Source: a virus. From it: 40,648 nt of DNA. The position numbers were made by a program, and so were the translations under genes. The notes beneath the pieces were generated by a model, which worked only from the letters and a program-made list of their open reading frames with translations, ran no database searches and was not told the DNA's origin. Each line of letters opens with the position of its first letter. The first letter of the stretch is position 1. The stretch spans positions 1 through 40,648 of the IMG/VR virus record IMGVR_UViG_3300030109_005320; one strand, 5' to 3'. Below, piece by piece: positions 635 to 40,648 of the stretch.

Positions 635-1862
635 AGTAGATCGGTATTTGTGTAACAAGTATAAAGATTTAGAATGGTGCGGGATATTGTTTTATACAGA
701 AGAAGGATACATTGATAATCCTGATGAATATAAAATACATATTCACGCTATGTACCCAATGCATGTTGGTAGTAGTGCATCAACTGAAATAGATAACTAT
801 GGAGAAGTTGAGCACTATATACAAGCAAGGCCAGAGCTAGATGATATGAGGCAAGGATTTATTCATTCACATAATAATATGGATACGTTCTTTTCGCCTA
901 CAGATAATCAGCAACTTATAAAAAGCTCTGATGAATATGATTTATTTCTATCTGTTATAACTAATACAGAGGCTGAATACATTGCTAGAGTTAGCTTTCC
1001 TGTAGACAATATTACAACAAAGAATGGCTCTTGTAATATACAAAATAAATCTGTTGGATATCTAGATTGTGATACTTTTCACGAAAGAGAATATCATATA
1101 GATGATATAATTCTAAAAAGAGTTGAGCAAATAGATAAAGAACATAAAGAAAAATTAAAAACAATAAATACAATGTCTTACAACTATGGACACTATAAAT
1201 ATTACTCAAACAATTACACTATCTGGGATAAAGGCATAGAATCATTTGAACCATCTACATTCTTTGAAGACACAGAACTAAAACAATACGGAGAAGACTT
1301 ATTAGATGATAGCTATAATCCTGATATAGTTCGTTCTATGTTTAATGATTACTTAAAACCTATAAATGAATTTGAAGTAAGCATAAAAGAAGACGAAGCT
1401 ATATGTAGATGTACAAAAGAAATACTTGTTTGCTCATTTAATTCTTTTGGCGCCGTAGGCGGAGATCAAATTAAATATTTTAGTGTACAACAATGTATAC
1501 CTAGTTTTAAAAGCATGTACAATACAAATAAGTTTCATAAAAATATGAAAACAAAAGATTTATTTGAATTAGCTAAAAAACTAGTAGAAATATATAATGG
1601 ATACTCTAAAAGAGTTGTTATCGAATCATTTGTAAATGCTTGGCAAGTAATACATGATTCTTTGTCAAAAGATAAAACATTAAGGAATAGTTTTTATAAT
1701 TTTATTTACTGTTCATTATTAATGTACATATCTATAAAATCAGATATACATTACGACCCTTATTCTGGAGTACCATATGAAGTTGTTAAGTATTATAAAC
1801 ATCATGATAGTTATATTAATATAGATTCTACTTATAAAGAGGAGGATTTTGTATGGTACTAG
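510..1862 (+). CDS. JAMM/JAB-domain isopeptidase (deubiquitinase-like)
   Basis: Predicted zinc metalloprotease that would cleave a ubiquitin-like protein from its precursor or from conjugates. Numbering from ATG 510, the N-terminal domain has E55 in E-W-C-G and the full JAMM signature H119-S-H121-x7-S129-x2-D132, so every catalytic and zinc-binding residue is present. Residues after about 170 form a C-terminal region of unknown function with a Cys cluster (CRC..., near residue 300). The start is uncertain: the domain core begins near residue 35 and no ATG lies closer, while the frame is open back to 417. The gene overlaps the E2-like gene upstream by about 125 bases and the E1 gene downstream by 10. 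A phage-tail K-type JAB is unlikely because it is not beside tail genes and sits in a module with Ubl and E1. Confidence 0.87.
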   Translation: MNKNTKSQKQLSIASNYILKETRPLLKFQGTPQVLIGEQVHEVDRYLCNKYKDLEWCGILFYTEEGYIDNPDEYKIHIHAMYPMHVGSSASTEIDNYGEVEHYIQARPELDDMRQGFIHSHNNMDTFFSPTDNQQLIKSSDEYDLFLSVITNTEAEYIARVSFPVDNITTKNGSCNIQNKSVGYLDCDTFHEREYHIDDIILKRVEQIDKEHKEKLKTINTMSYNYGHYKYYSNNYTIWDKGIESFEPSTFFEDTELKQYGEDLLDDSYNPDIVRSMFNDYLKPINEFEVSIKEDEAICRCTKEILVCSFNSFGAVGGDQIKYFSVQQCIPSFKSMYNTNKFHKNMKTKDLFELAKKLVEIYNGYSKRVVIESFVNAWQVIHDSLSKDKTLRNSFYNFIYCSLLMYISIKSDIHYDPYSGVPYEVVKYYKHHDSYINIDSTYKEEDFVWY

Positions 1863-2521
1863 AAGGCACTACAGGTAGAGCAAGATTTAGCAAAGCTGAA
1901 TGGTTTGTTAAAATGCAAAATCTAGATGTAATTGTTATTGGTGCTGGAGGCATTGGCTCTTGGTTAGGACATTTCCTAGCCAGGGCTGGTGCTAAACCAA
2001 TTATACAAGATATGGATTTGTATGACATAAATAATATTGGTGGACAACTATGCACAATGGATAGTCTACATAAAAATAAAGCAGAGTCTTTAAAAAATGT
2101 AGTAGATATTATGCTAGGACCACAAAACAATACAATGTCATACATCCCTCATGAATTTACAAATGAGCAAGTCTTGTTGCCAATAACATTTTGTTGCGTT
2201 GACAGCATGAGAGCTAGAAGAACTATATATGATAGTTGGCTATCTCTTGGTGATGATCGTGAAATATTTATTGATGGCAGAATGGGAGCTGAGGCATCTC
2301 AAGTATTTACTGCAACAAAAGATAAAGACAATTATTTAGAGAATTGGTTTCCTGATATAGAAGCAGATGTAGCGCCGTGCGCATACAAAGCAACATCTCA
2401 TATTGGTAGCATGACTGCTAGTTATATGATGAATGTTTTTACTAACTATTTATCTAATGATAACAGAGTGCCAGATAGTATAATCTATTATGGTGAAGAT
2501 TTAAATATGGAGATAAAATGA
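1853..2521 (+). CDS. ThiF/E1-like ubiquitin-activating adenylyltransferase
   Basis: Predicted to adenylate the C terminus of a ubiquitin-like protein and pass it on as a thioester. The Rossmann nucleotide-binding loop is G30-A-G-G-I-G35, followed by D-M-D-L-Y-D and N-N-I-G-G-Q (the conserved acidic and Asn/Gln patch), then C-V-D-S and a F-I-D-G-R-M-G segment, all in the order expected for ThiF/MoeB/E1 proteins. C176 in A-P-C-A-Y-K-A-T is the best candidate for the thioester cysteine. At 222 residues it is a minimal E1 with no extra domains. A strong ribosome binding site (GAGGAGG, 1841-1847) precedes ATG 1853. It overlaps the JAB gene by 10 bases and the next gene by 4, so translation is coupled. 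Confidence 0.87.
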   Translation: MVLEGTTGRARFSKAEWFVKMQNLDVIVIGAGGIGSWLGHFLARAGAKPIIQDMDLYDINNIGGQLCTMDSLHKNKAESLKNVVDIMLGPQNNTMSYIPHEFTNEQVLLPITFCCVDSMRARRTIYDSWLSLGDDREIFIDGRMGAEASQVFTATKDKDNYLENWFPDIEADVAPCAYKATSHIGSMTASYMMNVFTNYLSNDNRVPDSIIYYGEDLNMEIK

Positions 2522-3345
2522 TTGATATACAAAGTAAATCAACAAATACATATATACCGTTTAATATATCTGAACGTGAAGGATCAATATCTGATCATAA
2601 ATCTTTAAATCTATTTCCTTATAAGCTAAAAGAGTACGTGCCCTTGGGGGCACTACACTTTACTTGGGCAAAATATTCAATGTTAATTGATCAATCTATG
2701 AATTTTGGGTCGCCTTACAATGTACATATAAACAAAGAAGGTAAACCTGATTTTATATTTAAATCAAAAAGTGTTGAGCCTACAGAAGAAAACATATTAG
2801 CTTATCATTATTTATCAATGATGTTCTTTCAGAAATATAATTTCTTTCCATATACAATACATCCAAACCTTAAACCTAATGTAATAAATAATGGATTAGT
2901 TTCTACTAGAATAAGTACAAGATTTTATTGTAAAGAAAATGGAATGATTACTAATAGACCTAATGTAATTTATACTTCACATGGATATATATATAATAAC
3001 GATGGAAACTGCATAGGTTTTTTGGAAATTCCTTATAAATTATATATATTTATGTTCTATCGTTTATATTCTTTACCCGATCATACAATACATGAATTAA
3101 ATAAATCACATTATCAGTATGATGATTTACTTAAAGATATATATTACAATACAAGAGTGGTAATAGATGAGCGATATGATCTAGAAGATGGGCATAATAA
3201 TTTAATAAATTACTTGCGAGAAGAACGTCATATAGATCTAACTAGTGAAAATAAAGATGTAATAAATAAAGTAAGTAATATATTTGAATATGTTACTGAT
3301 AAAACAATAAATATAAAAACTAAAAAACAAATAATTAATGTATGA
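2518..3345 (+). CDS. PRTRC-B-like / second candidate E2-fold protein
   Basis: The 275-residue product follows the E1 gene with an ATGA overlap. No domain is obvious at first sight, but residues 155-165 read H-G-Y-I-Y-N-N-D-G-N-C, followed by I-G-F-L-E-I-P. The spacing from His to Cys is ten residues, the same as in the HPN...CL active site of E2 enzymes, and the segment resembles the conserved NV-x-x-D-G-x-V-C-x-G region of PRTRC system protein B, a family I recall being assigned to the prokaryotic E2 (UBC-like) families. The E1-B gene order also matches PRTRC loci. Function as a thioester carrier at C165 is inference; it could instead be an inactive adaptor. Confidence 0.5.
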   Translation: MIDIQSKSTNTYIPFNISEREGSISDHKSLNLFPYKLKEYVPLGALHFTWAKYSMLIDQSMNFGSPYNVHINKEGKPDFIFKSKSVEPTEENILAYHYLSMMFFQKYNFFPYTIHPNLKPNVINNGLVSTRISTRFYCKENGMITNRPNVIYTSHGYIYNNDGNCIGFLEIPYKLYIFMFYRLYSLPDHTIHELNKSHYQYDDLLKDIYYNTRVVIDERYDLEDGHNNLINYLREERHIDLTSENKDVINKVSNIFEYVTDKTINIKTKKQIINV

Positions 3346-4127
3346 ATGATATAAAATACAAAGCTATTGTATTTGATATAGATCATTCACTAACGACATT
3401 GGGGGGACCTAAAAGACAAGAAGAAGTCTTTGGTCTTCCCCCTATTTCTCATGTTGGTGGGCTCGGGTCTATAAACAAAGTATTATCTAAACTATTAGTA
3501 AAAAGATCAATAACAAAACAGCATGAATTACTTGGTGATTATGCAGTAGATGAAGTTATTGACTTTTCAGATAAACTTAGAGAAGCTGGTGTAAACATGA
3601 TGATTCTTGATACAATCACTATGTTGGGTACGCAAGAGCGTACTGAAATTATAAGAGAAAGAACAGGAGATAGCAAAAACAAACTAGAGTCATTAGACCA
3701 ACAAGGATGGGGTATATATGGAGCTAGAATGGAGAAGTTTATAAACTTTTTATCAAAGTGTAACTTCCCTGTTATTATTACTGGTCATGTAAACAGAGAG
3801 CCTGATGAGTTTGGTAGACCTATAGAGTATCCTGATATAAAGGGTAGTACCAAAACTTCTATTGGCAGATACTTTGATGTAATACTTTATTCAAAAGTAA
3901 ATAAATCTGGAGATGGTAATGCAACATATACTTGGATTACAAAAGCTGACTCTAGATATTTATTTGCAAAGAATAGAGGTAATTATTTAGAGCCAATAAT
4001 AGATCAGAATCTTTCTATTATTTTATCTAAATACAAAGAAAACGGAATAAATGCCCCAAAAATACTAATACTTGGTGATACAGGTAATGGTAAATCGTGG
4101 TCATTACAAACAATAAACAATAAATAA
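3342..4127 (+). CDS. Sak4/AAA_24-like RecA-fold ATPase, apparently circularly permuted
   Basis: Predicted recombination ATPase (single-strand annealing/RecA-like group). In order, the protein has a beta strand with D12-I-D14, a Walker B-like strand M-M-I-L-D90-T, a G-W-G-I-Y-G helix start, the sensor-like strand V-I-I-T-G-H149, a basic G-S-T-K-T segment, and only at the end a perfect Walker A, G245-D-T-G-N-G-K251-S252, nine residues before the stop. In Sak4/AAA_24 proteins the Walker A loop is at the N terminus and the other elements follow in this same order, so the first strand and P-loop appear moved to the C terminus. The start overlaps the upstream stop (ATGA), and the SSB-like gene begins 20 bases downstream, so the P-loop cannot belong to another gene. 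Confidence 0.75.
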   Translation: MNDIKYKAIVFDIDHSLTTLGGPKRQEEVFGLPPISHVGGLGSINKVLSKLLVKRSITKQHELLGDYAVDEVIDFSDKLREAGVNMMILDTITMLGTQERTEIIRERTGDSKNKLESLDQQGWGIYGARMEKFINFLSKCNFPVIITGHVNREPDEFGRPIEYPDIKGSTKTSIGRYFDVILYSKVNKSGDGNATYTWITKADSRYLFAKNRGNYLEPIIDQNLSIILSKYKENGINAPKILILGDTGNGKSWSLQTINNK

Positions 4128-4147: not shown

Positions 4148-4801
4148 ATGTTAATTGCAGGAAACTCAAGTCCTACAAAATCAAGTAATAATTCTATTGC
4201 AGAAGGAGTGTTTGCTAAGAAAGGTGTAATTACATCTTGTGTTCAAAGAACAGGCGAAACTTTAGGAAATAAAGGTTATGTACCTGATGTTTATATTGAA
4301 TTTACAATAAACTCTGATGGGTATGATAACAAAGTATTAGTATTTGGTAATATGATAAGAGATAAACAAACTAATGCTTTTGTAAGTTTAGGATCTGCAG
4401 GTAAAGCAGACCAAACATTTCATAGAATAGGGGCATTGGATGGATTATCTGACGAACAAAAACAAATACTTACAGAACCTAGAATTGCATTTACTCCTGA
4501 TGTAATACAAGCATCAGTAGGTAAAGCGGTTTACTTTGTTTCTTATGTGTATGGCAAAAGAAATAATAGTGACAAACCAGCTTATACTAATTTTAATTAT
4601 TTAGTAGGTGCTACAGATGATAGGACTGCGGAAGATGCCTATAATGAAATATATACGGCGCTAGGATCATCTGATTATGATAACAAAAAACTAAGAGAAG
4701 GTAGAAATTATCTTGCTTATTATAAAGATAATAATCCTTTACCAAGTAAACCTACTCCAAATATTTCTTCTAGTAATAGTTCTGATGATTTATTATTTTA
4801 A
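4148..4801 (+). CDS. Single-stranded DNA-binding protein-like
   Basis: Predicted to coat single-stranded DNA during phage replication. The 217-residue protein has a beta-rich body (residues about 20-170) and a flexible Ser/Asn/Pro linker ending in S-S-D-D-L-L-F. That acidic, aromatic-terminated tip is the classic SSB tail that recruits partner proteins. The body does not show an obvious bacterial SSB signature, so it is probably a divergent phage OB-fold SSB. GAGGTGA lies 5 bases before ATG 4148. It sits between the recombination ATPase and a strong terminator, which fits the known pairing of Sak4-type ATPases with a phage SSB. Confidence 0.72.
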   Translation: MLIAGNSSPTKSSNNSIAEGVFAKKGVITSCVQRTGETLGNKGYVPDVYIEFTINSDGYDNKVLVFGNMIRDKQTNAFVSLGSAGKADQTFHRIGALDGLSDEQKQILTEPRIAFTPDVIQASVGKAVYFVSYVYGKRNNSDKPAYTNFNYLVGATDDRTAEDAYNEIYTALGSSDYDNKKLREGRNYLAYYKDNNPLPSKPTPNISSSNSSDDLLF

Positions 4802-4896: not shown

Positions 4897-6693
4897 ATGA
4901 GCCAACGTTATATAGAGTTCGTAGTGGATTCTACATTTAACAGAGGGCACTTTATACCAGAAGAAAGATTAGCTGGATACGTTACTGCAAACATAAATAA
5001 AGTAATGTATATGTCTTATTATTCTTATGATAAAACAATGCTAGACCATGTAAAACAGATGAGTTCTGTTGCTGGTTTTAGAGGCACAAGACATCATCAT
5101 AAAACAATAATAGACATAGATGGCGAATCATCTGATTTAAAAACTGTAACTAATGTAGCTTATGAAATTGTAGAGTATCTTACTTTATATCATGAAGTAA
5201 AAGAAAACAATATACAAGTATGGTTTTCTGGAGGTAAAGGTTATCACATACATATGCCAAATGTATTTGGATTTGAATCTTCTGATCATTTACAAGAAGA
5301 TGTTTCCTCTACATTTAAATCATTTTTTATTAGATGGGATGGCTTTGTTGATACAGCACCTACTTCTTCTACAGGATTAATTAGAGCGCCGTATAGCTTG
5401 CATAAATCTGGTTTACATAAAGTACCTATATCTCACAAAGAACTATTTGAATTAAATAAAATGAATGATCCTACAGATGCAATAGCAAAGGTAGCGGGTG
5501 ATAATTTTATTTCTCAAAGAGTTTTATATCCATTTAGTGATGAAGATAACAACACATTAGCTGATGAAATAATTACTGGAGAAATAAAAACTAACTGGCA
5601 TCAAATGAATGACTATGATAATCCATCATCAGTTGTTACTTGTATGCAAAAATTAACATTACGAGGCCCTTTGGGGGGCCGTCGTCACAAAGATGCATTA
5701 CGACTAATAAGCTCTTGGAGAAGGCATGGTATACTTGCTTCACTATCAAGAGTTATGTTGTTAAAATGGTTAGATATACCAGATAATACAAAAGAAGCTG
5801 CTGAGTTTACTAAACTAGTAGAAAATGTTTATGATAAAGAATACAGTTATGGATGTAAAGATGAAGTTATGTCCGAGTATTGTGATTCTAAATGCATATT
5901 TTATAAGAATAAAGACTTTGTTTTAGAAGTAAATAATGCTGATACAATGTCACAAAACTTATTACAATACATAGAAAAAGTAGACTATCAAGGTATAAAT
6001 ATACTAGGCCTTTATGGAATAAATGGCATGTATAAATTTGTACCTGGAGAAGTAATGGTTGTAACAGGAGATACAGGTGCTGGTAAAAGTGCTTTTGTAC
6101 AAGATTTATTATGTAGAGTAAAACAGAAAACACTGTATTTAAATTTAGAGATGCATGAATCTCTTTTATACAGAAGATTTCTGCAAAACACTATGAATAA
6201 ATCAAAAGAAGAAATAATAGAAATGGTAAGAGAAGGTCAGTTATTAAATGATCAATTAGATTTTATTGACATACTTTCTCAATCACCAGATATATCTACA
6301 TTATCTAGGTTAGTTTCTCAGAAAGATTATCGCTTTGTAGTTGTTGATACTTCAGATGGAGTACGAGCAGAGAAAGCAGGTAATAATGAGTTTGTTAAAC
6401 TAGGACTAATAGTAGAAGCATTTAGAGAATTAGCTCAAAACAAAGATATACAAATAATATTAATACATCATTTAAAGAAAAGAGATACTCCTACTAATCC
6501 AATTGATTTAAATGATTTATCTGGAAATAGAGCTAATGTAACTAAAATGGATCATGTATTTGCACTAGAAGGGGCAGATACAGATAAACGTCTACGATCT
6601 CTAAAGAATAGAGATGAAGGACAATTAATTATAAATTTAAAATTTGATTATAATGTTTTTAGATTCCAACGAAGTTCAACAAGAATTACATAA
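4897..6693 (+). CDS. Primase-helicase: AEP primase + PriL-like Cys segment + RecA-fold helicase
   Basis: Replication enzyme predicted to synthesise primers and unwind DNA in one chain of 598 residues. The N-terminal archaeo-eukaryotic primase domain shows I-I-D73-I-D75-G-E (metal motif), S111-G-G-K-G-Y-H117-I-H (nucleotide motif) and a later T-G-L-I-R-A-P-Y-S-L-H segment. Residues 249-333 carry C249, C320, C329 and C333, with R-R-H and a hydrophobic helical stretch between, reminiscent of the Fe-S region of PriL. The C-terminal RecA-like domain has Walker A G391-D-T-G-A-G-K397-S398, a V-V-V-D-T strand, I-I-L-I-H-H-L-K-K-R and L-S-G-N-R-A as in DnaB-type helicases. No separate DNA polymerase gene is visible in the window. 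Confidence 0.88.
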   Translation: MSQRYIEFVVDSTFNRGHFIPEERLAGYVTANINKVMYMSYYSYDKTMLDHVKQMSSVAGFRGTRHHHKTIIDIDGESSDLKTVTNVAYEIVEYLTLYHEVKENNIQVWFSGGKGYHIHMPNVFGFESSDHLQEDVSSTFKSFFIRWDGFVDTAPTSSTGLIRAPYSLHKSGLHKVPISHKELFELNKMNDPTDAIAKVAGDNFISQRVLYPFSDEDNNTLADEIITGEIKTNWHQMNDYDNPSSVVTCMQKLTLRGPLGGRRHKDALRLISSWRRHGILASLSRVMLLKWLDIPDNTKEAAEFTKLVENVYDKEYSYGCKDEVMSEYCDSKCIFYKNKDFVLEVNNADTMSQNLLQYIEKVDYQGINILGLYGINGMYKFVPGEVMVVTGDTGAGKSAFVQDLLCRVKQKTLYLNLEMHESLLYRRFLQNTMNKSKEEIIEMVREGQLLNDQLDFIDILSQSPDISTLSRLVSQKDYRFVVVDTSDGVRAEKAGNNEFVKLGLIVEAFRELAQNKDIQIILIHHLKKRDTPTNPIDLNDLSGNRANVTKMDHVFALEGADTDKRLRSLKNRDEGQLIINLKFDYNVFRFQRSSTRIT

Positions 6694-8794: not shown

Positions 8795-9678
8795 AAAAAT
8801 TCAACAGGAGTTTCTATTACTTGAGTTATAATAGATTGCTCTGCATTAGATTTTTTTAATTTAAAATCAACGAACCATCCACCAATGTCAGTAGGATTAA
8901 AATTCTTTTCTACTGCCCATCCTGACACCCCTTTATTAATACTATCTATATAACTACCAGATTGAATATATTTTACTTTATCTTTATATATTCTACCGTT
9001 GGGTGAAACCCGTATTCTAGCAGTTGATGGGTCATACCATTTTTGATGTGTATGACCACGAACTAAAATATTAGCGTCTGGATATTTCATAGCTTCAATT
9101 TGAACATCAAGCATACCTTTAGATCGTTTAGCATTACCTCCAAAACCATGATGATAATGTATTTTACATATTTGTGATGTTCTTTTGTTTTTCATTCTAA
9201 AAAATACCCATCCAGAATATCCTCCTAGCTGTATATTTACATTTGGTTCTAAATTTAATGCCCATACTATAGAGCGCAGTATATCATGATTATGAAACTT
9301 ACTTATAGTCTTTTCATGATTACCATAAGAAATAAGGGCTATATTTTGAGCGTAAGGCTTTAAAAACTCTACGGCATACTCTACTACTAAATCAAGGTAG
9401 GTACGACCTTTTTGAATAAACTGAGGGTCTAATTCTTCACGTTGCAATCTTCTGTCACCATAAGAAGCCATTACATCTAATAAATCTCCAAATATAAAGA
9501 TTAATCCATTTGCATCTTTAATTTCATCAAGATGTCTTTTAAATATATTTCTTTTACATCCTATAGAGTCAAGATGTATGTCAGAACAAAATAAAGTTGG
9601 TACTAATTCAGTAGAACGAACACCTTGATATTCAAAAAGATGTACGTTTTCATTTAGTTCTTCAATGTGAAGTTTCAT
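8791..9678 (-). CDS. Calcineurin-like metallophosphoesterase
   Basis: Predicted binuclear-metal phosphoesterase of 295 residues. All five motifs are visible in order: C-S-D33-I-H35-L-D, F-G-D-L-L-D, Y-G-N-H-E-K, H-Y-H-H-G and V-R-G-H-T-H. The substrate is unknown; phage members have been proposed to act on nucleic acid or nucleotide ends. It is the last gene of the leftward late arm, coupled by an ATGA overlap to the giant protein upstream, an unusual place for an enzyme unless it too is made late or packaged. Confidence 0.88.
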   Translation of the reverse strand: MKLHIEELNENVHLFEYQGVRSTELVPTLFCSDIHLDSIGCKRNIFKRHLDEIKDANGLIFIFGDLLDVMASYGDRRLQREELDPQFIQKGRTYLDLVVEYAVEFLKPYAQNIALISYGNHEKTISKFHNHDILRSIVWALNLEPNVNIQLGGYSGWVFFRMKNKRTSQICKIHYHHGFGGNAKRSKGMLDVQIEAMKYPDANILVRGHTHQKWYDPSTARIRVSPNGRIYKDKVKYIQSGSYIDSINKGVSGWAVEKNFNPTDIGGWFVDFKLKKSNAEQSIITQVIETPVEFF

Positions 9679-12600
9679 TTTTGAGTATAAAAATCTGTTA
9701 ATTCTTTTATTTCTTCATCAATAAAACGACTTCTTGCTTCATATAAACCTAATGATTTAAGAGTAGCACTATCTTCCATATTATTAACAAGCCTAGTTAA
9801 AGAATGAAAATGGATACCTGTTAAATATTGTGGAGCCATTGCTGGAGTATCTATAGATCTTATAATATTACGAGCAAGCATACCATAAGGCAATAAGCTT
9901 ACGACTCGATAATCAAGAGCATCTAGCATATCTTTATCACTAATCATCGCTATTGCCATTTCAATAGGTATAGTAAGTGGTGTAGCAAGAACCCGTGTAG
10001 AAGGAGGCAAGATTGCTTGTACTGGGTTAAAAGGATAAGGAAGTGTACCAAAGAAGGCTCTATCTCTTGCTTCTTCATCTCCAAAAAAGTAATCACTAAA
10101 ATCTAATAAGTAATTCCAAGGAGCAGGCACTATACTTTCAAACATACTTAAAGGCATAAGAGTAGCAAGAGCAAACATTAAAGCATCAGCTTGAGCCATC
10201 CTTACAAATCGTGCATACTCTTGAGTTCCTTCTTGAAATCCAGAACGTCTTGCTTCTGCTACAATATCTCTTCTAAATCGTACAGAGTTCCAACTCCATA
10301 ATTGAAAACGTGACCATACTCTACCTAAATTTGTTCGTGCAATAGCAGGTCTATTAGCTGCGTTATATAAAAACTGAGTACCCCAAACACCTTTTAATGC
10401 TTGCTGTATTAATATTGGATCATCCCATCTAAAAGCACCTGAGTTTACCATCATACTTTCTCTTGCTTGTATATAGTGTGCCCAGAATGATCTTGTTCTT
10501 AATCTCATTTCTACTGAACTAAGAAGCCATGCCCCAGATCCAGACACAACATCTGCCATATTGTATTTTCTAGCAATATCTAAAACCTCTTTACGATAAT
10601 TTTTTTTATCAGATTTAAGAACACCTACAATTTCTTTCATAAATGATTTTCCTTGCGCCGTAAGCTGCTTTGTAGGTCCTACCTCTGATGCGACCATAGA
10701 TTCTATTGCCCCAAACTCTATCGCTAGTTTACGAGCTTTTTCTGCGCTATCAATAGATGGGTCTACATTATCCCTTAAATATGTCCATCTACTTGCTTTT
10801 AACCAAGGTCGTAATCCTGTACTAACAGCAGTCATTGCATTACCACCTGTGTAATTATTTGTCATAGATGTAGTATTGGTAAGCAATGTTAAGAGCTGAT
10901 ACTTACCTTCTAATCTTGTAAACCATTTTAATCTTTCTTGAAATTCTAAACTTCCTTGTTCATTTTTTTCCATTACTTTATCTTCCCAACCAAATCGTTT
11001 AACTATACGATTCCATTGTTTTTGTGCATATTGATCAGATAAATAATAGTAAGGTCTTCTTTTAAAATTTAAATATGGATCTTGAAAATATTCTTTTCCA
11101 AACGATCCTGGTTTACCAGCAAAATCCTGAATATATAACTCTGCAAATTTAGCCCAAGATTCAGTAACATCACCCATAGACTTAGCTTTTCTAAAATCAC
11201 GTAAATATTTTTGAGCTAATATTACACCAAATGTTTTATGATATGCCCTATTTAATCCTTGAACATATTGGTCATATGCAGATTCTGATGTTTCCCATCC
11301 GCCAAGTAATCTATCACTTCTGCCAGCAAGATTACCAAATTTTCTTATTGTTACTTCTCCTTTTCTATTTGATTGATAATTTTTAGTAGAAAATAATGCA
11401 TCTATAAAATCAGAAGATAAACCAAGATCATCTAACTTTCCTTGAGTGTACCATCTTTTAACAGAAAGTCCATTTCCACTATCTACTTTTTCTTCTCCAA
11501 ATCTTTCTACATATTCTTGTATGGCTTCTTCGCTATGATTTACATGAGGTACATAAGATTCATAAGGAAGCTTACCTATCATTGGTCGTAAGAAAAAAGT
11601 ACCATCAGGGTTTCTTCTATAGACAGGGCCGTCAGGGCCCTCTCTTTCAACAACACCCCTATCATTCATTCTTACTTCAAATAATTTTTTATTTCTTAAT
11701 TCAACATCTGCAATATCAGCAATAAGGGTTGGTTGCCCATTTACTACGACTCTTGTATTATTTAAATACTCAAGTTCTCTAGCTATTTCAAACATATTAG
11801 ATAGACCTATATTAGCAACTCGTTCACTTTCTAATTTAGTGCCTTCAAATTGCTGTATAAGTTTGTTTATTGTATCATTTACATCCATGCTTCCGTCATC
11901 ATTTCTTGTTACAAAATTTTCACCAGAAGCAGGTCGTATAAACCCTTCGTCTATAGTTTGATTTCTTTTAGTATAAGCTCTTGATATAATACCATGATTA
12001 ACAAAACCTTTAGAAATACTACCCATTAAATCTTCACCAGTAACCATTTCTCTTTTACCAGTTTCAGGATGATCTATGTAGTATTTTTTATTTTTTAATT
12101 CATTGTATATTCCCTCTACCTCTTTATATCTAGACTCTAATAGTTCTATATTGTATTCTAAATTTTCAATATCTGTTTCATCTTTAGCAGATTGTATTCT
12201 TTTTTTATAATCATTAACAAGCTGCATTTCTTTTATTCTTAACGAAACAAGATTTAAATTAACCCTGTCAGAAAGTACGCTGTCATCATTTAAAAATCTA
12301 AATTGACCAGATTGATATTCAGAAAGTAAAGATGTTGTTGCTGATGTAGCCTCCTCTACACCACCAAGAGCCCTTCTCATTTTTTCATAAAAAGACATAA
12401 CCTCTCTAACTTCTTTATTTTTATATCCATCTACAGTTAAAACTTGAGCAATTTGTTTACTGGATATTTCAGGGTTATATCTTTTAAATAACTCTCCTAA
12501 TGTGTCTGGGAAAAAGAAATCATATAACCTACTTACATTTTTAGTAGGATCAGTTTGTAAAAGTTTTTCTAAAAATGTTTTCTTTCCTAAGTTGTTTAAG

Positions 12601-15600
12601 AACCTAGTAAATGTTACTAAGTCATCAACAGTAGACATTTTTAGCTCTTTCTTAACATATCCTTCGTATATACTATTAAAGTTTTCACCTACAGTTGAAG
12701 GGTGTTTTGATATATGAGCTTTTAAATCATCTAATAAATCTAAATTTCTTTTTCCCTCTCGTGTATTAGGATCATAGTTTACTTTGCTCTTTGTATCTGT
12801 AATTATTTTTTCTAATAAATCTTTAGCAAAACCTTCTGATATTACCTCATCGGCCACGGCTGATTGCCTGGCCTCATTCTCGTCTATAGGAGGTCTATTA
12901 GCACTTATTCTTTTAACATAATCTTGTACAGATTGTATATCACCAAAATTTTCGTTTCCTCTAGATCTATAATCTCTAAAATCTTTTTCAATAAAATCTA
13001 ATATTTCTTTTTTAACATTAGGATCTATACCTCTTATCAAGGCTTGTTCAAGAATCATACTAGACCTTGGGTCTATTAAGTCACTAGATATTTTGTCTTT
13101 TGGATTAGCCTGTATAATATTATTATATGCTGTTATCCAGTTAGCAACATTTTGATCACTAACATGGGGTAATGAAAATCCTGCAAGAGAATTATTTTTA
13201 TTTTGATATATACGTAAAACTCTATCAGGAAGTACTCTTAATAACTCATTGTATTCGCTAACAGATCTAAAATCATCTGATGATAAATAATCATATGTGT
13301 ATTTATCATATGAGCTATCATCTAAAGAAACTTGTCTAGCTTCAAAATAATTATTAGCTTTTTTGCTTGCTATAATGTATTCATATCTTGCTATTTCATC
13401 TATACTATACCTTTGTTGAGATAAACTACCAAGCATATAAGAATCGTAGTAATCTTTTTCTTCTTTAGTTTTTAATTTAGATTTATAGTTTTCTGTAAAT
13501 TTTTCTAAACCTTCTATATTTTTAACAGACTTTATACCTAGATTATTATCATTAAGTACTACATTTTGTATGTAACTAGGGTCTGTTTTATCTGTTGCCT
13601 CAAATTTATTTTTATTGTATTTAAACTTATCTACATGCTTTCTTATAGCACCTAGTTTTTGTTCAGATATACCCTTCGCTATTGCCGCTTCAAAAGTAGC
13701 TTGATTAGTTTGCATAGTAGCTAAATTTGAAACAGCTCGTTCTATTTCAAAAGCAAATTTAAATGTTCTGTTATGGTCATCTTCTCTTTTGCCAATAGCA
13801 AATATATTTTGACCAGAGGCTCTTAACGTTTGGATATATTCTTTTAAAGGATTATTAGATAATACAGATGCATAATCCTTGCTACTATGTAATCTAGAAA
13901 AATCATTTACTATTCTAAACAAAGTAGATGTGTTTACTCTGGCATATCTAAGAAATTCATTTACAGTACGTCTAGAGTTTTTATCTGTAGAACTTTTTTC
14001 TACTACAGGTTTGTAATTATCTTTTACAGCTAAAGAAAGTCTTTTTACAGCATCAGAATATGCTGTCCCTAAATCTTGCTTTCCATATTGACCATCAAAA
14101 TCTTTTAAATTATTATTAAACTCATCAAATTTTACAACAACTTTTTGTCTTGTTTCTGGGTCAAATTTTCTCCCATCTATAGTTCCATTAATTAATTTTA
14201 AACCCCTAGATGTATTTATTTTATTTAAATTAATAAATTTATCAAATTTACCAACACCAAATGCATCTGAATCATATACAACTCCATCTTCATCAATAAG
14301 GCGGTAGCTATCAATTGCCTCAAGACTAATTTTATTAGCAATAGTATTTCTATTATAAGGCAACCTTCCAGTAGCATCTACCGCAGCATTCATTGCTTGT
14401 CTTCTAAGAGAAAATAAATTTTTTAAAGAATTTTTAAATTTTAAATCTAAAGCAACTATAGTCTTTTTAAAAGTTCGTTCAGTTTCATATTGACGAGCAT
14501 TTCGAACATCATCAATAAAAGTTATAGATGCCTCTGTTGGTGTTATTTCTATAGTATTTGAACCATCAATTCCTGCATCATATAATTTTTTTGCACTTGT
14601 AGCAATAGGCCCTATAGTAGCTGATGGGCCAACCATTCTATTACCAAATGTAGTATATAAATGATTTTGCAATACAGATAATGGGTTTAAAGCATTTGAT
14701 AATGTTCCTTTTTCAGCAGCCTGTAATCCTCCTTTTGGATCTGTTACTCCACCCTGCCCATCATCATATTCATCTTTTATTTTTAATATTGCATTTTTAA
14801 TAGGAGAACCTTCGGCTCCTTTATCTAAATTTTGAAAGAAATGCATTTTATCGCCATCGTTATCGGCGCCGCCTAAATACTGCATATCAACAGTATTTAA
14901 ATGCATACCATATCCTCTTCTATTTGTAAAACCATTAAAACTTAATACTCTAGCACCAGAGGGAGAATCTTGAGGAACACGAATTACAATAAAATCAAAT
15001 ATATCTTTCATTTGATTTTTTTTCGTAGCATCAGTTTCTTTTTGATATAGATCCCAAGCCTTACCCATTTTCATTTGGGTACCATCTATCCATTCTATAT
15101 TAAAGTTTCTCATTTCTTTTGCAAGCATGTATTGACCTCTTTTAATAGGCTTTCTTAAATCATGTTGCAAAAACGAATCATTGCCAAAAGCAAATGTCAT
15201 TCCAGAGTTTTTTATCTTAGGTCTAGTTGCCCTATTAATTACATATCTTTTAAAAGCTTCATAAGCAAAACTACTAACTTGTTCTCTGTTAATAATAGAA
15301 GGCTCTAGCACACCATATTTTAATGCTACTTTTAATATCCTATCTGAAGAACTATTAAAATCAGTTATGTTTAATTCTGGAAGTATAGAATCTAAATCAT
15401 CAGCTCCTCCTTTTGTGTCTAAGGCATCTATATAATGCTCATCTTTAGGAGAAAATATTTTTGCCCATATTTTAGAATATAATGGGCCACCATAAACAAA
15501 CGTCTTATCTTTTTGAAATAATATTTTATATAGATTTGATACATTTATATCATCTACATCTAAGTCTTGTACTTCTTTTTGAGTAATAGTATTGTCTTCA

Positions 15601-18428
15601 ATTTTTTTATTTATATCAGCATTACCCTCTATAGAAGGATTAATGTGATTATCTAATAATGCTTGTCTTGCAGCTTTATCTGTCATAGATGACAATAGCT
15701 GTTTAGGTATTCTTGCATCCTCTGGCATCTTTTCATATACACCAAAGTTTACACGAACATTTTTAGGATCTATATTAAATACATTTAATCTTTGACCTTC
15801 TCTTATAACAGGGCCATTAGCAGTAAAATCTATATTATTTATTGGTCTAAGACCTCTTTGTTTTACCGCAGTATCAAAAAATAAAAAGTCAATATTATTT
15901 TGCTCCATAAACTTTTGAGCTGATCCGTCTGCTCCAAACGCTCCAAGTTTACCAACAATCATCCCATTCCCATCTCCTTCATCTCCTACGACTGTAAATT
16001 TGGCAAATCCCGACTCTTCTGGTAGTCCAGAGTCTTCTAGTATGCCTCTAAAGCTATCGTCTTTTACAAGCAAAATTCCATCAGTATGAACTTCATTAAA
16101 ATCTATTTGATTTAAATAATCTTTAGCATCCGTTCCACTAACTATAGAGCCTCTTAGCTTTCCTATACCAGGAGATAAAGTATAATTACCATCAGCAATA
16201 GGCTGCATTCTTTTATTTATATCTTCTGGAGATAATACAAAAGAGCCAGAACCATCTTTATTAGCTTTTGCCATTACTTCTAAAGGCAAGCCATTAAGCC
16301 TTTCTAAAAGTAAAATATTATTGTATTGATATTTTTGATTTATTTTGCCTGGTGCTAATTTTATTTTTAAATCTGAATCTGCTTGATTTATTGCATCTAA
16401 TTTTGATTGCAAAGAAGCAACCCAAGCATCATTAGTATCATCAAAAAACCAACCATCAGCATGATATAAAACACCAGAATCTTTTTTACCAAAAGTAAAA
16501 GGCTTTCCTATTTTTGCAGATACACTAAGATATTCTCCTGCTACAGGATTAATTAAATTGCCTCTTGTTTCAAAAAATGTTTCAAATAAATTATTTACTT
16601 TACCTCTTCCGTCATCAGAATATTTAGAAGCAATCATTCGTCTTCCAAAACTTTCAATAGTTTTTTGAAAATGACTTTTTGATTTTACTTCTGGAACTCT
16701 TCTAAGGTCTGATAACTGACCTGCTACAGGTTTAAATTTATCTATCTCTAATCTAGCGCCTCTATTATATGATATCTGATCTATATTTTGATTTTGAGAT
16801 ATTTTCTTTATTGCCTGTCTTAGTAATCTTGTAGATTCTTTTGGTGCTTTAGATATTTCTACATCAAATTTTATTTCTATTTCTTTTAATGTTCTATCTA
16901 CAGAATATTTTTTTGCAACACTTTTTTCAATATCCCTTCCTATATCTACAAACTTTTTTAATCCTGTATCATCAACTGTACCAGGTATAGCATCTTCTGC
17001 CCACATTGCAAGAGGATCTCTTAATGTAGTATTTATTTCATGGTCTTCGAATCCTTGACGTATAACTAATTCATTAGATTTATTTGTAGACTCTGTATTT
17101 CCATATTGTATTTTAAATCTTGTTTTTAATACATCTTGAAATTGTTCTTCTAATATTAAATCAGAAATACCTTTGTTTTTTATTGTTTTTCCTGCAATAG
17201 CGTATGCTTCATCTACATCAATACCCTTGTCTAATTGTTCTTCTATAACAGCCTTAGCATACTCCCTTCTAAATGCTTCTCTAGTTTGTGGGCTTTCATC
17301 TAATACGCCTCTAAAGGCATCTGCTATAATACCACTCGCATCACCACGTGCACCAAACTGAAACTGCATTTGATCTCTAACTAATTCCTGCTCTTCTTTT
17401 CTTAAATCTTTAAAACCAGGATTTAATTCTGGATCTAACATTCTATCAGTTAAGGGATATCCTGTTTCTGCTTCTGTTTGTTGTCTTGTTTTATTTATAA
17501 AATTTATTGCATTTCTTTGTGTTAATGGAGTATCAGTAATCCCAAAATATGCACCAAGTAAATAATGATATATTTGAAGTTCTATAGGATCACCAAGAGA
17601 GGCGCTTAGGCCGCCTCCATACAAACTAGATGATATAGTCCTAAGTGCTAAGTTTGCTTGTTTTGCAGAAACCCCACCTTTTGCAAGCATCTTACCAAGT
17701 TCTGTAAAATTACTTATACCTCTAAATACACCACCTTCTGCGGCCCCCATAAGGCCGCCTTTAAGCATAGCATCTATACCGCCTGACCAACTACTAATAA
17801 AACTAGCTGCACCAAATTTAACTGCAGTATCTGTAGCATCTATTATTTTATCTTGTACGCCTTCTGAAAAATATTTTAATGCTTTATTTTTATATACAGG
17901 ATGTACATAGTTTTTGTATTGTTTTAATACAGCATCTCCAATAACTAATGGAAATGATTTTCCTGCTAAAGGTTGGCTAACTATCGGGTCTAAAGTTTTA
18001 AATCCTTTTTGTAATCTTGCTGCTCCACTAGCAATCTTTCCTGTTCCTAAACCTGCAACTTTTCCAAGTATTTTAGCACTATTAACAGTTGTTAATCGTG
18101 TAAGGGTACCTGCGCCAGGTATTATACCAATAAACCCAAGTAATTGCCCACTGCTCCTTGCTATTGCTTCTGCAATATTATCTGGGTCTTCACCCATAGG
18201 AATAGTAGTAAATCCACTACCAACACCAAGGGCAAACTGACTTAGAACGCCACCTATGGATTGCGATATATTTTCTTCTGATTGTTCCTGATTTCTTGTA
18301 AACCTTCTTCCTAAAGTTTTTCCTAGATATTCAATCTGGTCTAAATCATCTTCGCTAAATGCTTTAGGATTAGCTCGGTAGAGTCTGACAAGATCAGTAT
18401 ATCTTTCGCCATACTGCTCATCATTCAT
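9675..18428 (-). CDS. Giant virion protein with an RNA polymerase-like DxDGD motif
   Basis: A 2917-residue protein taking over a fifth of the genome. Residues 1188-1196 read A-D-N-D-G-D-K-M-H, matching A-D-F-D-G-D-Q-M of the RNA polymerase beta-prime double-psi barrel (catalytic D1189, D1191, D1193; codons near 14850-14864). About 45 residues upstream is I-R-V-P-Q, like the R-x-P strand before that motif in beta-prime. A candidate partner barrel has T782-D-G-I-L-L-V-K789, F-A-K810 and I-V-G-K827-L-G. The C-terminal region (about 2350-2917) is helical with hydrophobic segments and resembles the large 'polyvalent' phage proteins. It lies downstream of two internal-protein candidates, as injected proteins do. 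AGAGGAA precedes ATG 18428. The polymerase role is inference; a degenerate barrel is possible. Confidence 0.72.
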   Translation of the reverse strand: MNDEQYGERYTDLVRLYRANPKAFSEDDLDQIEYLGKTLGRRFTRNQEQSEENISQSIGGVLSQFALGVGSGFTTIPMGEDPDNIAEAIARSSGQLLGFIGIIPGAGTLTRLTTVNSAKILGKVAGLGTGKIASGAARLQKGFKTLDPIVSQPLAGKSFPLVIGDAVLKQYKNYVHPVYKNKALKYFSEGVQDKIIDATDTAVKFGAASFISSWSGGIDAMLKGGLMGAAEGGVFRGISNFTELGKMLAKGGVSAKQANLALRTISSSLYGGGLSASLGDPIELQIYHYLLGAYFGITDTPLTQRNAINFINKTRQQTEAETGYPLTDRMLDPELNPGFKDLRKEEQELVRDQMQFQFGARGDASGIIADAFRGVLDESPQTREAFRREYAKAVIEEQLDKGIDVDEAYAIAGKTIKNKGISDLILEEQFQDVLKTRFKIQYGNTESTNKSNELVIRQGFEDHEINTTLRDPLAMWAEDAIPGTVDDTGLKKFVDIGRDIEKSVAKKYSVDRTLKEIEIKFDVEISKAPKESTRLLRQAIKKISQNQNIDQISYNRGARLEIDKFKPVAGQLSDLRRVPEVKSKSHFQKTIESFGRRMIASKYSDDGRGKVNNLFETFFETRGNLINPVAGEYLSVSAKIGKPFTFGKKDSGVLYHADGWFFDDTNDAWVASLQSKLDAINQADSDLKIKLAPGKINQKYQYNNILLLERLNGLPLEVMAKANKDGSGSFVLSPEDINKRMQPIADGNYTLSPGIGKLRGSIVSGTDAKDYLNQIDFNEVHTDGILLVKDDSFRGILEDSGLPEESGFAKFTVVGDEGDGNGMIVGKLGAFGADGSAQKFMEQNNIDFLFFDTAVKQRGLRPINNIDFTANGPVIREGQRLNVFNIDPKNVRVNFGVYEKMPEDARIPKQLLSSMTDKAARQALLDNHINPSIEGNADINKKIEDNTITQKEVQDLDVDDINVSNLYKILFQKDKTFVYGGPLYSKIWAKIFSPKDEHYIDALDTKGGADDLDSILPELNITDFNSSSDRILKVALKYGVLEPSIINREQVSSFAYEAFKRYVINRATRPKIKNSGMTFAFGNDSFLQHDLRKPIKRGQYMLAKEMRNFNIEWIDGTQMKMGKAWDLYQKETDATKKNQMKDIFDFIVIRVPQDSPSGARVLSFNGFTNRRGYGMHLNTVDMQYLGGADNDGDKMHFFQNLDKGAEGSPIKNAILKIKDEYDDGQGGVTDPKGGLQAAEKGTLSNALNPLSVLQNHLYTTFGNRMVGPSATIGPIATSAKKLYDAGIDGSNTIEITPTEASITFIDDVRNARQYETERTFKKTIVALDLKFKNSLKNLFSLRRQAMNAAVDATGRLPYNRNTIANKISLEAIDSYRLIDEDGVVYDSDAFGVGKFDKFINLNKINTSRGLKLINGTIDGRKFDPETRQKVVVKFDEFNNNLKDFDGQYGKQDLGTAYSDAVKRLSLAVKDNYKPVVEKSSTDKNSRRTVNEFLRYARVNTSTLFRIVNDFSRLHSSKDYASVLSNNPLKEYIQTLRASGQNIFAIGKREDDHNRTFKFAFEIERAVSNLATMQTNQATFEAAIAKGISEQKLGAIRKHVDKFKYNKNKFEATDKTDPSYIQNVVLNDNNLGIKSVKNIEGLEKFTENYKSKLKTKEEKDYYDSYMLGSLSQQRYSIDEIARYEYIIASKKANNYFEARQVSLDDSSYDKYTYDYLSSDDFRSVSEYNELLRVLPDRVLRIYQNKNNSLAGFSLPHVSDQNVANWITAYNNIIQANPKDKISSDLIDPRSSMILEQALIRGIDPNVKKEILDFIEKDFRDYRSRGNENFGDIQSVQDYVKRISANRPPIDENEARQSAVADEVISEGFAKDLLEKIITDTKSKVNYDPNTREGKRNLDLLDDLKAHISKHPSTVGENFNSIYEGYVKKELKMSTVDDLVTFTRFLNNLGKKTFLEKLLQTDPTKNVSRLYDFFFPDTLGELFKRYNPEISSKQIAQVLTVDGYKNKEVREVMSFYEKMRRALGGVEEATSATTSLLSEYQSGQFRFLNDDSVLSDRVNLNLVSLRIKEMQLVNDYKKRIQSAKDETDIENLEYNIELLESRYKEVEGIYNELKNKKYYIDHPETGKREMVTGEDLMGSISKGFVNHGIISRAYTKRNQTIDEGFIRPASGENFVTRNDDGSMDVNDTINKLIQQFEGTKLESERVANIGLSNMFEIARELEYLNNTRVVVNGQPTLIADIADVELRNKKLFEVRMNDRGVVEREGPDGPVYRRNPDGTFFLRPMIGKLPYESYVPHVNHSEEAIQEYVERFGEEKVDSGNGLSVKRWYTQGKLDDLGLSSDFIDALFSTKNYQSNRKGEVTIRKFGNLAGRSDRLLGGWETSESAYDQYVQGLNRAYHKTFGVILAQKYLRDFRKAKSMGDVTESWAKFAELYIQDFAGKPGSFGKEYFQDPYLNFKRRPYYYLSDQYAQKQWNRIVKRFGWEDKVMEKNEQGSLEFQERLKWFTRLEGKYQLLTLLTNTTSMTNNYTGGNAMTAVSTGLRPWLKASRWTYLRDNVDPSIDSAEKARKLAIEFGAIESMVASEVGPTKQLTAQGKSFMKEIVGVLKSDKKNYRKEVLDIARKYNMADVVSGSGAWLLSSVEMRLRTRSFWAHYIQARESMMVNSGAFRWDDPILIQQALKGVWGTQFLYNAANRPAIARTNLGRVWSRFQLWSWNSVRFRRDIVAEARRSGFQEGTQEYARFVRMAQADALMFALATLMPLSMFESIVPAPWNYLLDFSDYFFGDEEARDRAFFGTLPYPFNPVQAILPPSTRVLATPLTIPIEMAIAMISDKDMLDALDYRVVSLLPYGMLARNIIRSIDTPAMAPQYLTGIHFHSLTRLVNNMEDSATLKSLGLYEARSRFIDEEIKELTDFYTQK

Positions 18429-39008: not shown

Positions 39009-39372
39009 TATATTTTATCAAGTACTGATAAGATATTTTAGATGGATTGTAAATCATTCCTGTATCGAACTATCAGAACATAAAAAATTTAGGTTCTTAA
39101 AAGATACAAAAGGTACAGGTGATTTTACTTTGTATGTACACATTGATAAAAATGGCAAGCCTATTATACAATCAATGTTACTGCATTGTACTAAATATGA
39201 TCAACATAAAGAGATTCCTATGACATATATACACAGGTCATGGGAATACGTTATGGATGACTCAATATTGTATAGCATGAATAATTTATCTTTTGATAAA
39301 GCAATGGATAATATGAGAAAACTAAGTATAGAAACAGAAATAATAGAAATAAAAAACGAGGAAGTATTATGA
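38989..39372 (+). CDS. Protein of unknown function upstream of the Ubl gene
   Basis: 127 residues from GTG 38989, which overlaps the preceding gene by 20 bases; no nearer ATG exists. The core F-R-F-L-K-D-T-K-G-T-G-D-F-T-L-Y-V and the following beta pattern suggest a small alpha/beta fold. H-C-T-K-Y-D-Q-H holds a Cys and two His that might bind metal. Not recognised. It is coupled to the Ubl gene by an ATGA overlap, so it may take part in the same pathway. Confidence 0.55.
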   Translation: MKNFLNNIFYQVLIRYFRWIVNHSCIELSEHKKFRFLKDTKGTGDFTLYVHIDKNGKPIIQSMLLHCTKYDQHKEIPMTYIHRSWEYVMDDSILYSMNNLSFDKAMDNMRKLSIETEIIEIKNEEVL

Positions 39373-39632
39373 TAGTACACGTAAAGAACAGCAACAAAAA
39401 CCTAACAAAAACTGTAGAAGGTGACTTTACTACTTTGTCTAGTGTTCTAGAAGAGCTAGCTAAGTATAATAACTATGAAGATTTATGTCCTGAAGGATGT
39501 AACTTTACTTTTAGAAGAGGTGATAGAATTGGTGAAACAGTTAATTCTAATACTAACCTTTCTTTATCTGCGGTTAACAATGAAGTTTTTATTAAAGTAA
39601 ATCCGAGCAAGCTCAATGCAGGAATTTATTAA
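39369..39632 (+). CDS. Ubiquitin-like beta-grasp protein
   Basis: 87 residues, predicted to be the modifier of the downstream conjugation enzymes. The strand order fits a beta-grasp fold: M-I-V-H-V-K-N (b1), L-T-K-T-V-E-G (b2), T-T-L-S-S-V-L-E-E-L-A-K-Y (helix), F-T-F-R-R-G-D-R-I (b3) and E-V-F-I-K-V-N-P (b5). It is followed in order by E2-like, JAB and E1 genes. The end, L-N-A-G85-I-Y, has a Gly two residues from the terminus; removal of I-Y by the JAB protease would leave a Gly end suited to E1. GAGGAAG precedes the ATG. PRTRC protein C is the closest family I can name, but similarity is weak. Confidence 0.68.
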   Translation: MIVHVKNSNKNLTKTVEGDFTTLSSVLEELAKYNNYEDLCPEGCNFTFRRGDRIGETVNSNTNLSLSAVNNEVFIKVNPSKLNAGIY

Positions 39633-39801
39633 TCAATATGAACTCATAATATTTGATAAACTAAAGCAATTAATTAAAGGGGAGCAAAATGATTTGTTTT
39701 CAGAATCACTCCCTGATAATTTATACGACTTGTGCCTTGAAATCATTAAGAAAGAAAATGATAAAGGTAAAACAGAACATAATTATACAAAATTATGGTA
39801 A
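39616..39801 (+). CDS. Small helical protein between Ubl and E2-like genes
   Basis: 61 residues, helical (Y-E-L-I-I-F-D-K-L-K-Q-L-I-K). It overlaps the Ubl gene by 17 bases and the E2-like gene by 7, so it is co-translated with them. It may be an adaptor for the conjugation enzymes; function unknown. Confidence 0.58.
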   Translation: MQEFINQYELIIFDKLKQLIKGEQNDLFSESLPDNLYDLCLEIIKKENDKGKTEHNYTKLW

Positions 39802-40648
39802 TACAAGAAGTAGAAAGATTAGCTAAAAATATCTTTGAGAAAGATAAATGTATAGTAGACTTGTCAGTAGATTACAATGGTAACCGAAAAGCAACGCTTA
39901 TAATTCTTTATCCTTATCTATATGTAGAGAATACTGAGTATTCAAATCATAATGTTGAGATTAATAACTTTGTTTTTAAAGTTACTATGTCAATAAAACA
40001 AAATGGTGATGAAATACATCTAGATAGGTTCTTAGATAAAAGAGGTTATAATCTTAATCCTGAAGCAAATATGATTGCTAAAAACTATGTGCATTCGCAT
40101 GTAAGTAATTATTGTTCTAATGAAGTATGCTTGGGTGAAGGTTGTGCTAATGCTGCATGGTTAAAACTATCAGATCATTATTTTATGAGCACAGAATCAT
40201 ATGAAGATATATCAGATGTAGTATTTGATTTCTTTGTTAATGTAAATAAAATATTTCATATAGAAGATGATGATGGTGGTCCATGGGTTAGAATAAGCAG
40301 TTTAACTGAAACAGATGAATATGGGGTTTATGAAGATATAGAAGAAGATGATTTTATTAATGCACACGAAGAACATGGTGTAGACGAATCATTTTTAGAA
40401 AACTATATAAAGAAAAATTCTAATCCTAAATATGATTTCTGTCCAGATACTGTTGCTTTTCTTTTGGAATCTTTTGAAGTATCAAGAGATATATTGACAA
40501 GTAAAAGAAATAACATTATAGACTATATGTACTCTGAGTTTATTACTCCATTAGTAGAAGTATATCCTTTTACTAGAAGTATTAGTGAGTATGAAAAAGA
40601 CGTAAGAGTATGTGAAGATGATTTATTAAAACCTTTCTATCCTACAGT
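39795..40648 (+). CDS. E2-like protein, N-terminal part (continues at 2-634)
   Basis: First 284 codons of a 462-residue protein whose frame runs through the terminal repeat into 2-634. Residues 100-114 read H-S-H102-V-S-N-Y-C-S-N-E-V-C112-L-G. In E2 enzymes the active site is H-P-N-x7-C-L with Cys ten residues after His; here H102 to C112 has the same spacing and is also followed by Leu. The flanking strand V-F-K-V-T-M-S-I and the later helix (D-V-V-F-D-F-F-V-N-V) suit a UBC-like fold. The remainder is an acidic, Tyr-rich extension of unknown role. E2 activity is inference; the Ubl, JAB and E1 neighbours support it. Confidence 0.62.
   Translation, partial: MVIQEVERLAKNIFEKDKCIVDLSVDYNGNRKATLIILYPYLYVENTEYSNHNVEINNFVFKVTMSIKQNGDEIHLDRFLDKRGYNLNPEANMIAKNYVHSHVSNYCSNEVCLGEGCANAAWLKLSDHYFMSTESYEDISDVVFDFFVNVNKIFHIEDDDGGPWVRISSLTETDEYGVYEDIEEDDFINAHEEHGVDESFLENYIKKNSNPKYDFCPDTVAFLLESFEVSRDILTSKRNNIIDYMYSEFITPLVEVYPFTRSISEYEKDVRVCEDDLLKPFYPT
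40550..40647. repeat. Right copy of the 98-bp terminal direct repeat
   Basis: Identical to 1-98. The window's last base (40648) does not match position 99. See the left copy. Confidence 0.9.

Follow-up and report, generated by a model that had tools for sequence, protein, structure and literature searches.

The nearest complete systems to the locus described here are PRTRC, Bil, Bub and CBASS type II, and bacterial ubiquitin-like (Ubl) conjugation is known mainly as an anti-phage defence and from plasmid cassettes. Bacterial operons combining E1, E2, JAB and Ubl genes were predicted by Iyer et al. in 2006 (rows 6a–6e; PMC1779556), and trimming by a JAB protease after a Gly was predicted for the lambda tail Ubl TAPI (PMC1779556). 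Bil consists of four genes encoding a Ubl, an E2, a JAB and an E1, and its JAB enzyme processes the Ubl precursor (summarised in PMC11354881). The PRTRC set of plasmids and conjugative elements comprises the Ubl PRTRC_C, PRTRC_B/Prok-E2_D, PRTRC_A, PRTRC_ThiF, PRTRC_F, ParB and PRTRC_D.

The window analysed here is the whole of a 40,648-base virus record, IMGVR_UViG_3300030109_005320. It encodes a Ubl, an E2 candidate, a JAMM protease and an E1 in one operon, as a sequence-only reading had proposed, and the arrangement proved to be conserved across many phages with its catalytic residues kept. The parts, their order and the invariant active sites point, with a probability that we place at about 0.78, to a virus-encoded pathway of Ubl conjugation and deconjugation.

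The locus resembles PRTRC in that Ubl, E2, JAB and E1 lie in one operon in both, and the phage JAB shares the stretch HSHxxxxxFFSxTD with PRTRC_A. PRTRC_parB, PRTRC_D (ParM-like), PRTRC_B and PRTRC_F were not found in the window record, in agreement with the earlier claim that ParB- and ParM-type partners are absent, and the phage Ubl and E2-like profiles gave no match to PRTRC_C, B or F. The missing partners and the failed profile matches rule out membership of PRTRC. The Ubls also differ at their ends, since three of five PRTRC_C examples terminate exactly on GTKG, whereas the phage Ubl always has a tail past the Gly. BilABCD contains the same four kinds of gene; by its description, however, Bil is a bacterial defence whose BilA has two Ubl domains, whereas here a phage-borne, single-domain Ubl of 87 amino acids lies in a replication module. 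CBASS Cap2/Cap3, Bub and 6A-MBL share with the locus a related E1 and E2 chemistry by His/Cys. By contrast, E1 and E2 are here separate short proteins, a Ubl is present, no cyclase or MBL partner was seen, and no fused E2–E1 protein of the Cap2 type was found in the window. The operons and TAPI of the 2006 study offer the concept and the JAB trimming of a phage Ubl after Gly, but the TAPI/TAPK tail-assembly clusters have neither E1 nor E2, and operons 6a–6e are bacterial. On these differences the cassette is not a member of PRTRC or CBASS and probably not of Bil, and its JAB is closest to PRTRC_A.

The six ORFs of the cassette lie on the plus strand across the circular junction, with the positions, order and motifs that had been claimed for them. 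Comparison of the contig ends reveals a direct repeat of 98 bases (1–98 and 40,550–40,647), through which the E2-like ORF joins across 40,549/1 into a protein of 462 amino acids. In the closest relative, a 33-kb contig (L101), the E2-like protein of 463 amino acids is a single unbroken ORF, so the adjacency across the junction of the window is real. The gene overlaps reported earlier are present and amount, in order, to 4 bases (upstream gene/Ubl), 17 (Ubl/small protein), 7 (small protein/E2-like), about 125 (E2-like/JAB), 10 (JAB/ThiF), 4 (ThiF/accessory) and 4 (accessory/Sak4). The E2-like/JAB overlap (510–634, about 125 bases) is read in different frames, and overlaps of about 20–170 bases recur in most of the relatives examined. 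Curated family searches place two of the six proteins, ThiF and, weakly, JAB; family and profile searches gave no curated match for the Ubl, the E2-like protein or the last (accessory) protein. Profiles rebuilt without the window and its close relative recover the window's E2-like protein (4e-14), JAB (2e-56) and ThiF (2e-63); the remote family profile alone, built without the window, did not recover its Ubl or the protein at 2518–3345. Elsewhere in the window, one ORF of 2,917 amino acids (9675–18,428) lies beside a predicted exonuclease, with counterparts 46–48% identical in genomes G002 and G003.

The Ubl gene occupies positions 39,369–39,632 (plus strand). Its AlphaFold2 model, built from 46 family rows, shows the order β-β-α-β-β-β with a pLDDT of 74, predicting a β-grasp fold. 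A Foldseek comparison with the PDB gives a top 50 made up almost entirely of ubiquitin and its relatives (probability 1.00, TM about 0.6, E about 2e-3). The predicted fold, the gene position and the nearer relatives L101–L103 support the identity of the window's Ubl. Its Gly85 is followed by the two-residue tail IY. The aligned residue is Gly in all 104 distinct family members, usually in the context K-[IV]-[KRA]-[SA]-G, and none of the 104 ends on it: the tail has 1–5 residues in 18 members and 55–217 in 86. The short tails vary in sequence (K, F, H, Y, R, A, S, IY, NY, TSI and others), and the near relatives terminate in AGNY (L101), AGA (L102) and AGS (L103). An invariant Gly followed by a tail would be the pattern of a precursor that is trimmed to expose the Gly; the operon also encodes a JAMM protease. 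In the subgroup of the window, the small gene has its start codon across the N-A-G codons of the Ubl, and this overlap alone could keep these residues in place; no such start codon lies at the Gly region in the crAss-like members.

The long crAss-like precursors have features of their own. Those of L003–L014 share the C-terminal tip SxSEIDxMFxF, and in cr126_1 (L011:4344–5270, L011 being assigned by sequence reading) the extension apparently carries a ribosomal L7/L12 C-terminal domain (Pfam 5e-12, one member). In cr106_1 the Ubl, ending KSGKF, is split from its downstream part by an HNH gene of the homing-endonuclease type, inserted at L013:3653–4928. Next to the window's Ubl, a small helical protein of 61 amino acids (39,616–39,801, plus strand), whose ATG overlaps the NAG codons, is kept between Ubl and E2-like protein in L101, L102 and L103; it was not found in the crAss-like loci.

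The E2-like gene runs on the plus strand from 39,795 to 40,648 (residues 1–284, with His102, Cys112, Glu157 and Pro163) and, joined across the terminal repeat, from 1 to 634 (up to residue 462; in the linear record the frame is open from base 2). The protein carries H100-S-H102-x9-C112-L-G, and H102, C112, G114, E157 and P163 are each present in 107 of the 107 E2-like proteins aligned. The H102-x9-C112 motif on which the earlier assignment was based is thus present, with invariant His and Cys, but its spacing is no signature, as it ranges from 9 to 28 in the family. The AlphaFold2 model of residues 1–284 has a pLDDT above 90 over approximately residues 1–170. A helix, four strands, the HSH...Cys loop and further helices follow one another in the model, which corresponds to the element order of a UBC domain. 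TSG101-UEV is a relative of UBC domains, and it appears among the PDB matches of the model in Foldseek together with OB-fold SSBs and lipocalins, at a best probability of 0.28 or less. Structure prediction with fold search, which had been suggested as a check, has therefore supported the β-grasp of the Ubl (ubiquitin, probability 1.00) and has not confirmed the UBC fold of the E2-like protein. The E2-like protein has no Pfam E2 match, the PADLOC scan of it was negative, PDB sequence searches with E2-like alignments gave no match, and the confident matches of its model in BFVD were phage relatives only. On the modelled element order, the protein is a candidate UBC-fold E2.

The JAB/JAMM metalloprotease is encoded at 510–1862 (plus strand). 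Its ORF is open from 417, and comparison with the start in L101 indicates that the gene most likely begins at 510. The complete JAMM motif claimed for it was found in full, as E86, H150-S-H152, S160 and D163. Across 133 JABs these residues are conserved in 127/127 (E86), 128/129 (H150), 131/133 (H152) and 133/133 sequences (both S160 and D163). The window's JAB matches PF14464 (Prok-JAB) at 0.0012, under Pfam's own cut-off. PRTRC_A is the best curated family for 6 of 12 JAB members (E 9e-4; hhalign 5e-5), the window's JAB itself having no PRTRC_A match.

The last gene of the cassette (2518–3345, plus strand; 275 amino acids) had been read as a second E2 because of an H-x9-C motif. The motif exists in the window, but L101 has Ser/Asp and Cys at the aligned positions, L102 has neither residue, and the crAss-like counterparts have Gly/Asn and Leu-type residues. 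On these differences the reading as a second E2 is rejected. With no family or profile match and the same position in crAss-like phages, the product is, by sequence comparison, a conserved accessory protein.

Searches with tblastn returned 78 annotated phage records for the E1 and 74 for the JAB, all below 60% identity. Both proteins were matched in crAss001, DAC15, other Steigviridae and Flavobacterium psychrophilum phages; Xanthomonas jumbo phages and one Erwinia phage appeared in the E1 search only. In a Xanthomonas jumbo phage (L015:3241–5919) the ThiF gene adjoins a gene for an 892-residue protein containing HPHMAVPSSQESHGSLCLG, possibly another E2-bearing variant. For the E2-like, accessory and Ubl proteins, direct tblastn found nothing in the phage records, and these genes were therefore traced by synteny and profiles. 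The crAss-like order is primase, protein X, a protein of about 400 residues, 'metalloprotease', 'thiamine biosynthesis protein ThiF', a protein of about 200–270 residues and uracil-DNA glycosylase. Positional alignment shows that protein X begins with a Ubl-like domain and that the 400-residue protein has the E2-like pattern of the window, YxHSH...CxG...ESxxGGPY. A single-sequence scan of IMG/VR with ThiF found no match, and two profile scans with an alignment query yielded 160 loci. ORF searches with HMMs recovered the order Ubl, E2-like, JAB, ThiF, whether or not the last gene followed, at 125 loci from IMG/VR and phages, some of them on the same contig. Among 144 loci with more than 3.5 kb upstream of the JAB, the E2-like gene was found in 128, the Ubl in 124 and ThiF in 139.

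A third clade, of aquatic phages, keeps the same cassette order. Although the E2-like HMM fails in this clade, the motif HPH-x(5-8)-C-(L/M/F/T)-G occurs in the gene that immediately precedes the JAB, and its H, P, H, C and G never vary among the 15 sequences (L141, L142, L146, L149, L151, L153, L154, L160, L161, L164, L168, L170, L172, L178 and L179). Motifs of the HPH...C-x-G type are usual in prokaryotic E2s. When the aquatic profile is compared with that of the window family, H falls on H and C on C, though the match is weak (E 0.003). Upstream of the aquatic E2, all 13 loci that include the stretch encode a protein of 69–80 residues ending in KxxSG plus mostly one or two residues. Because this clade was not used in defining the Ubl pattern, its tailed Ubls represent an independent test, which the pattern passed.

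A JAB scan of a one-genome-per-species prokaryotic collection (about 85,000 genomes) returned two MAG contigs, one of 6.8 kb with the same cassette and one of 4.6 kb. Within the sensitivity of this one scan, the cassette thus appears to be essentially viral. In crAss-like phages its genes are so far annotated as 'thiamine biosynthesis'. The main text of Yutin 2021 (PMC7886860) does not mention ThiF, JAB or ubiquitin, and that of the crAss001 paper (PMC6235969) does not mention ThiF or ubiquitin. A literature search, with preprints and most subscription journals outside its scope, found nothing linking crAss-like phages, ThiF and ubiquitin, and no description of a phage E1 plus E2 cassette.

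The cassette adjoins replication genes at every locus examined. In the window it is followed on the plus strand by a Sak4-like AAA_24 ATPase (3342–4127; PF13479 1e-13, phrog_124 Sak4 2e-21), a probable SSB with the acidic C-terminus SSDDLLF (4148–4801), recognised by inspection with no family match, and a DnaB-like primase-helicase (4897–6693; PF13481 1e-12, phrog_19/phrog_239). The aquatic order is Ubl, E2, JAB, ThiF, AAA_24 (Sak4-type), a gene for about 210 residues and a DnaB/PriCT primase-helicase, with the gene of similar size to the SSB in the same place in L172, L154 and L141. In crAss-like loci the primase lies directly upstream of the cassette and the uracil-DNA glycosylase directly downstream. 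This gene context makes replication-linked tagging the leading, if unproven, role. The aquatic E2 proteins end in a Q-x-x-L-F-like peptide that resembles sliding-clamp-binding sequences (QVHLSF, QATLF, QGSLF, QIPLFF, QLSL) in 15 of 15 cases, compared with 11 of 91 other C-termini at the same loci and 10 of 358 internal windows. The peptide is absent from the window's E2-like protein and from most crAss-like ones (present in 5/136), and it is a lead only, the pattern having been chosen after viewing the sequences and the members being related. A fuller proposal is that the Ubl, matured by its own protease, is coupled to the phage replication fork, where a clamp-docked E2 would tag replisome proteins. 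This phage counterpart of PCNA ubiquitination would be shared by the crAss-like phages of the gut and the aquatic phages and be almost missing from cellular genomes. We offer it as a tentative possibility, well short of even odds.

The pathway might instead tag or inactivate host immune proteins, or compete with host Bil or CBASS Cap2/Cap3. This explanation is about what is tagged and does not conflict with the conjugation chemistry; we consider it unlikely. The rapid divergence of the cassette argues for it. The window and G003 share 80–84% identity in terminase, portal and head protein (TerL 84%), compared with 26% in the E2-like protein, 35% in JAB and 59% in ThiF. The dN/dS values against L101 are 0.52 (Ubl), 0.43 (E2-like), 0.48 (accessory), 0.31 (JAB) and 0.17 (E1), against 0.07 for Sak4. 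All being below 1, they indicate functional genes that evolve fast under constraint. However, the neighbouring replication genes have also diverged (about 43–71% identical to G003), so module exchange may explain part of the difference, and in three phage groups the cassette lies inside the core replication operon and not in a variable accessory region. Its fast evolution would be in keeping with a host or viral partner that changes along with it.

Under the existing 'thiamine biosynthesis' annotation the chemistry would be different: in such a sulfur-carrier pathway a ThiS/MoaD-like Ubl is charged by ThiF and matured by JAB, and sulfur is accepted by the E2-like protein, as an enzyme that makes a thio-modified nucleotide or cofactor. 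The E1 gene (1853–2521, plus strand) encodes, as claimed, a minimal ThiF-type E1, here of 222 amino acids and with the ThiF/UBA fold (PF00899 2e-14; phrog_15670 4e-35), including the predicted catalytic Cys176. The 132 distinct E1s show no variation at R11, G30, G32, D53, N61, K76, D117 or R143, and each of the 131 sequences with a letter at the Cys176 column has Cys there. Among NCBIfam models its best scores are to ThiF, with 6A-MBL also listed, and it matches PRTRC_ThiF at E 3.5e-7 (29.8 bits, cut-off 144.75); the PADLOC matches are confined to the nucleotide-binding part. The ThiF scores, the MoaD/ThiS-like appearance of the aquatic Ubls and the described JAB-processed ThiS/MoaD operons (PMC1779556) favour a sulfur carrier. 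Against it, the nearest E1s by PDB sequence are UBA5, MccB and UBA6, ahead of ThiF/MoeB (Cap2 and BubCD chains are also listed), and the E1 sequence has neither CxxC zinc pairs nor a rhodanese domain. Moreover, no thiamine or molybdopterin gene was seen near the cassette, ThiF itself being the only one among annotated crAss-like neighbours, and a His/Cys pair of the E2 type is present in the E2-like protein. Taken together, these features make a sulfur carrier improbable. A structural or regulatory replication complex with no protein conjugation, which would suit the unconfirmed UBC fold and the place in the replication module, is very improbable given that the E1, JAMM and E2-like catalytic residues are near-absolutely kept, in roughly 100 or more distinct sequences for each protein.

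The preferred reading is thus protein conjugation by a phage-encoded Ubl. The parts, their order, the invariant catalytic residues, the Gly-plus-tail design and the location in a replication module can be read directly from the DNA, and from them we infer every chemical step, a UBC-type E2-like protein and the targets. First, the Ubl precursor would be cut by the JAMM protease after the invariant Gly, removing Ile-Tyr here and a C-terminal domain of 55–217 residues in the crAss-like phages. The minimal E1 would then adenylate this Gly and hold the Ubl as a thioester on Cys176, from which it would be handed to Cys112 of the E2-like protein. The E2-like protein would attach the Ubl to targets made or recruited with the replication module, and the same JAMM protease could remove it again.

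The cassette is carried by culturable phages, namely crAss001 (Bacteroides intestinalis), DAC15 (B. thetaiotaomicron) and the Fpv phages (F. psychrophilum). If the conjugation reading is true, the annotation of these genes in cultured crAss-like phages would be corrected, viruses would use Ubl chemistry for their own cycle, and a further lineage would be added to the history of ubiquitin.
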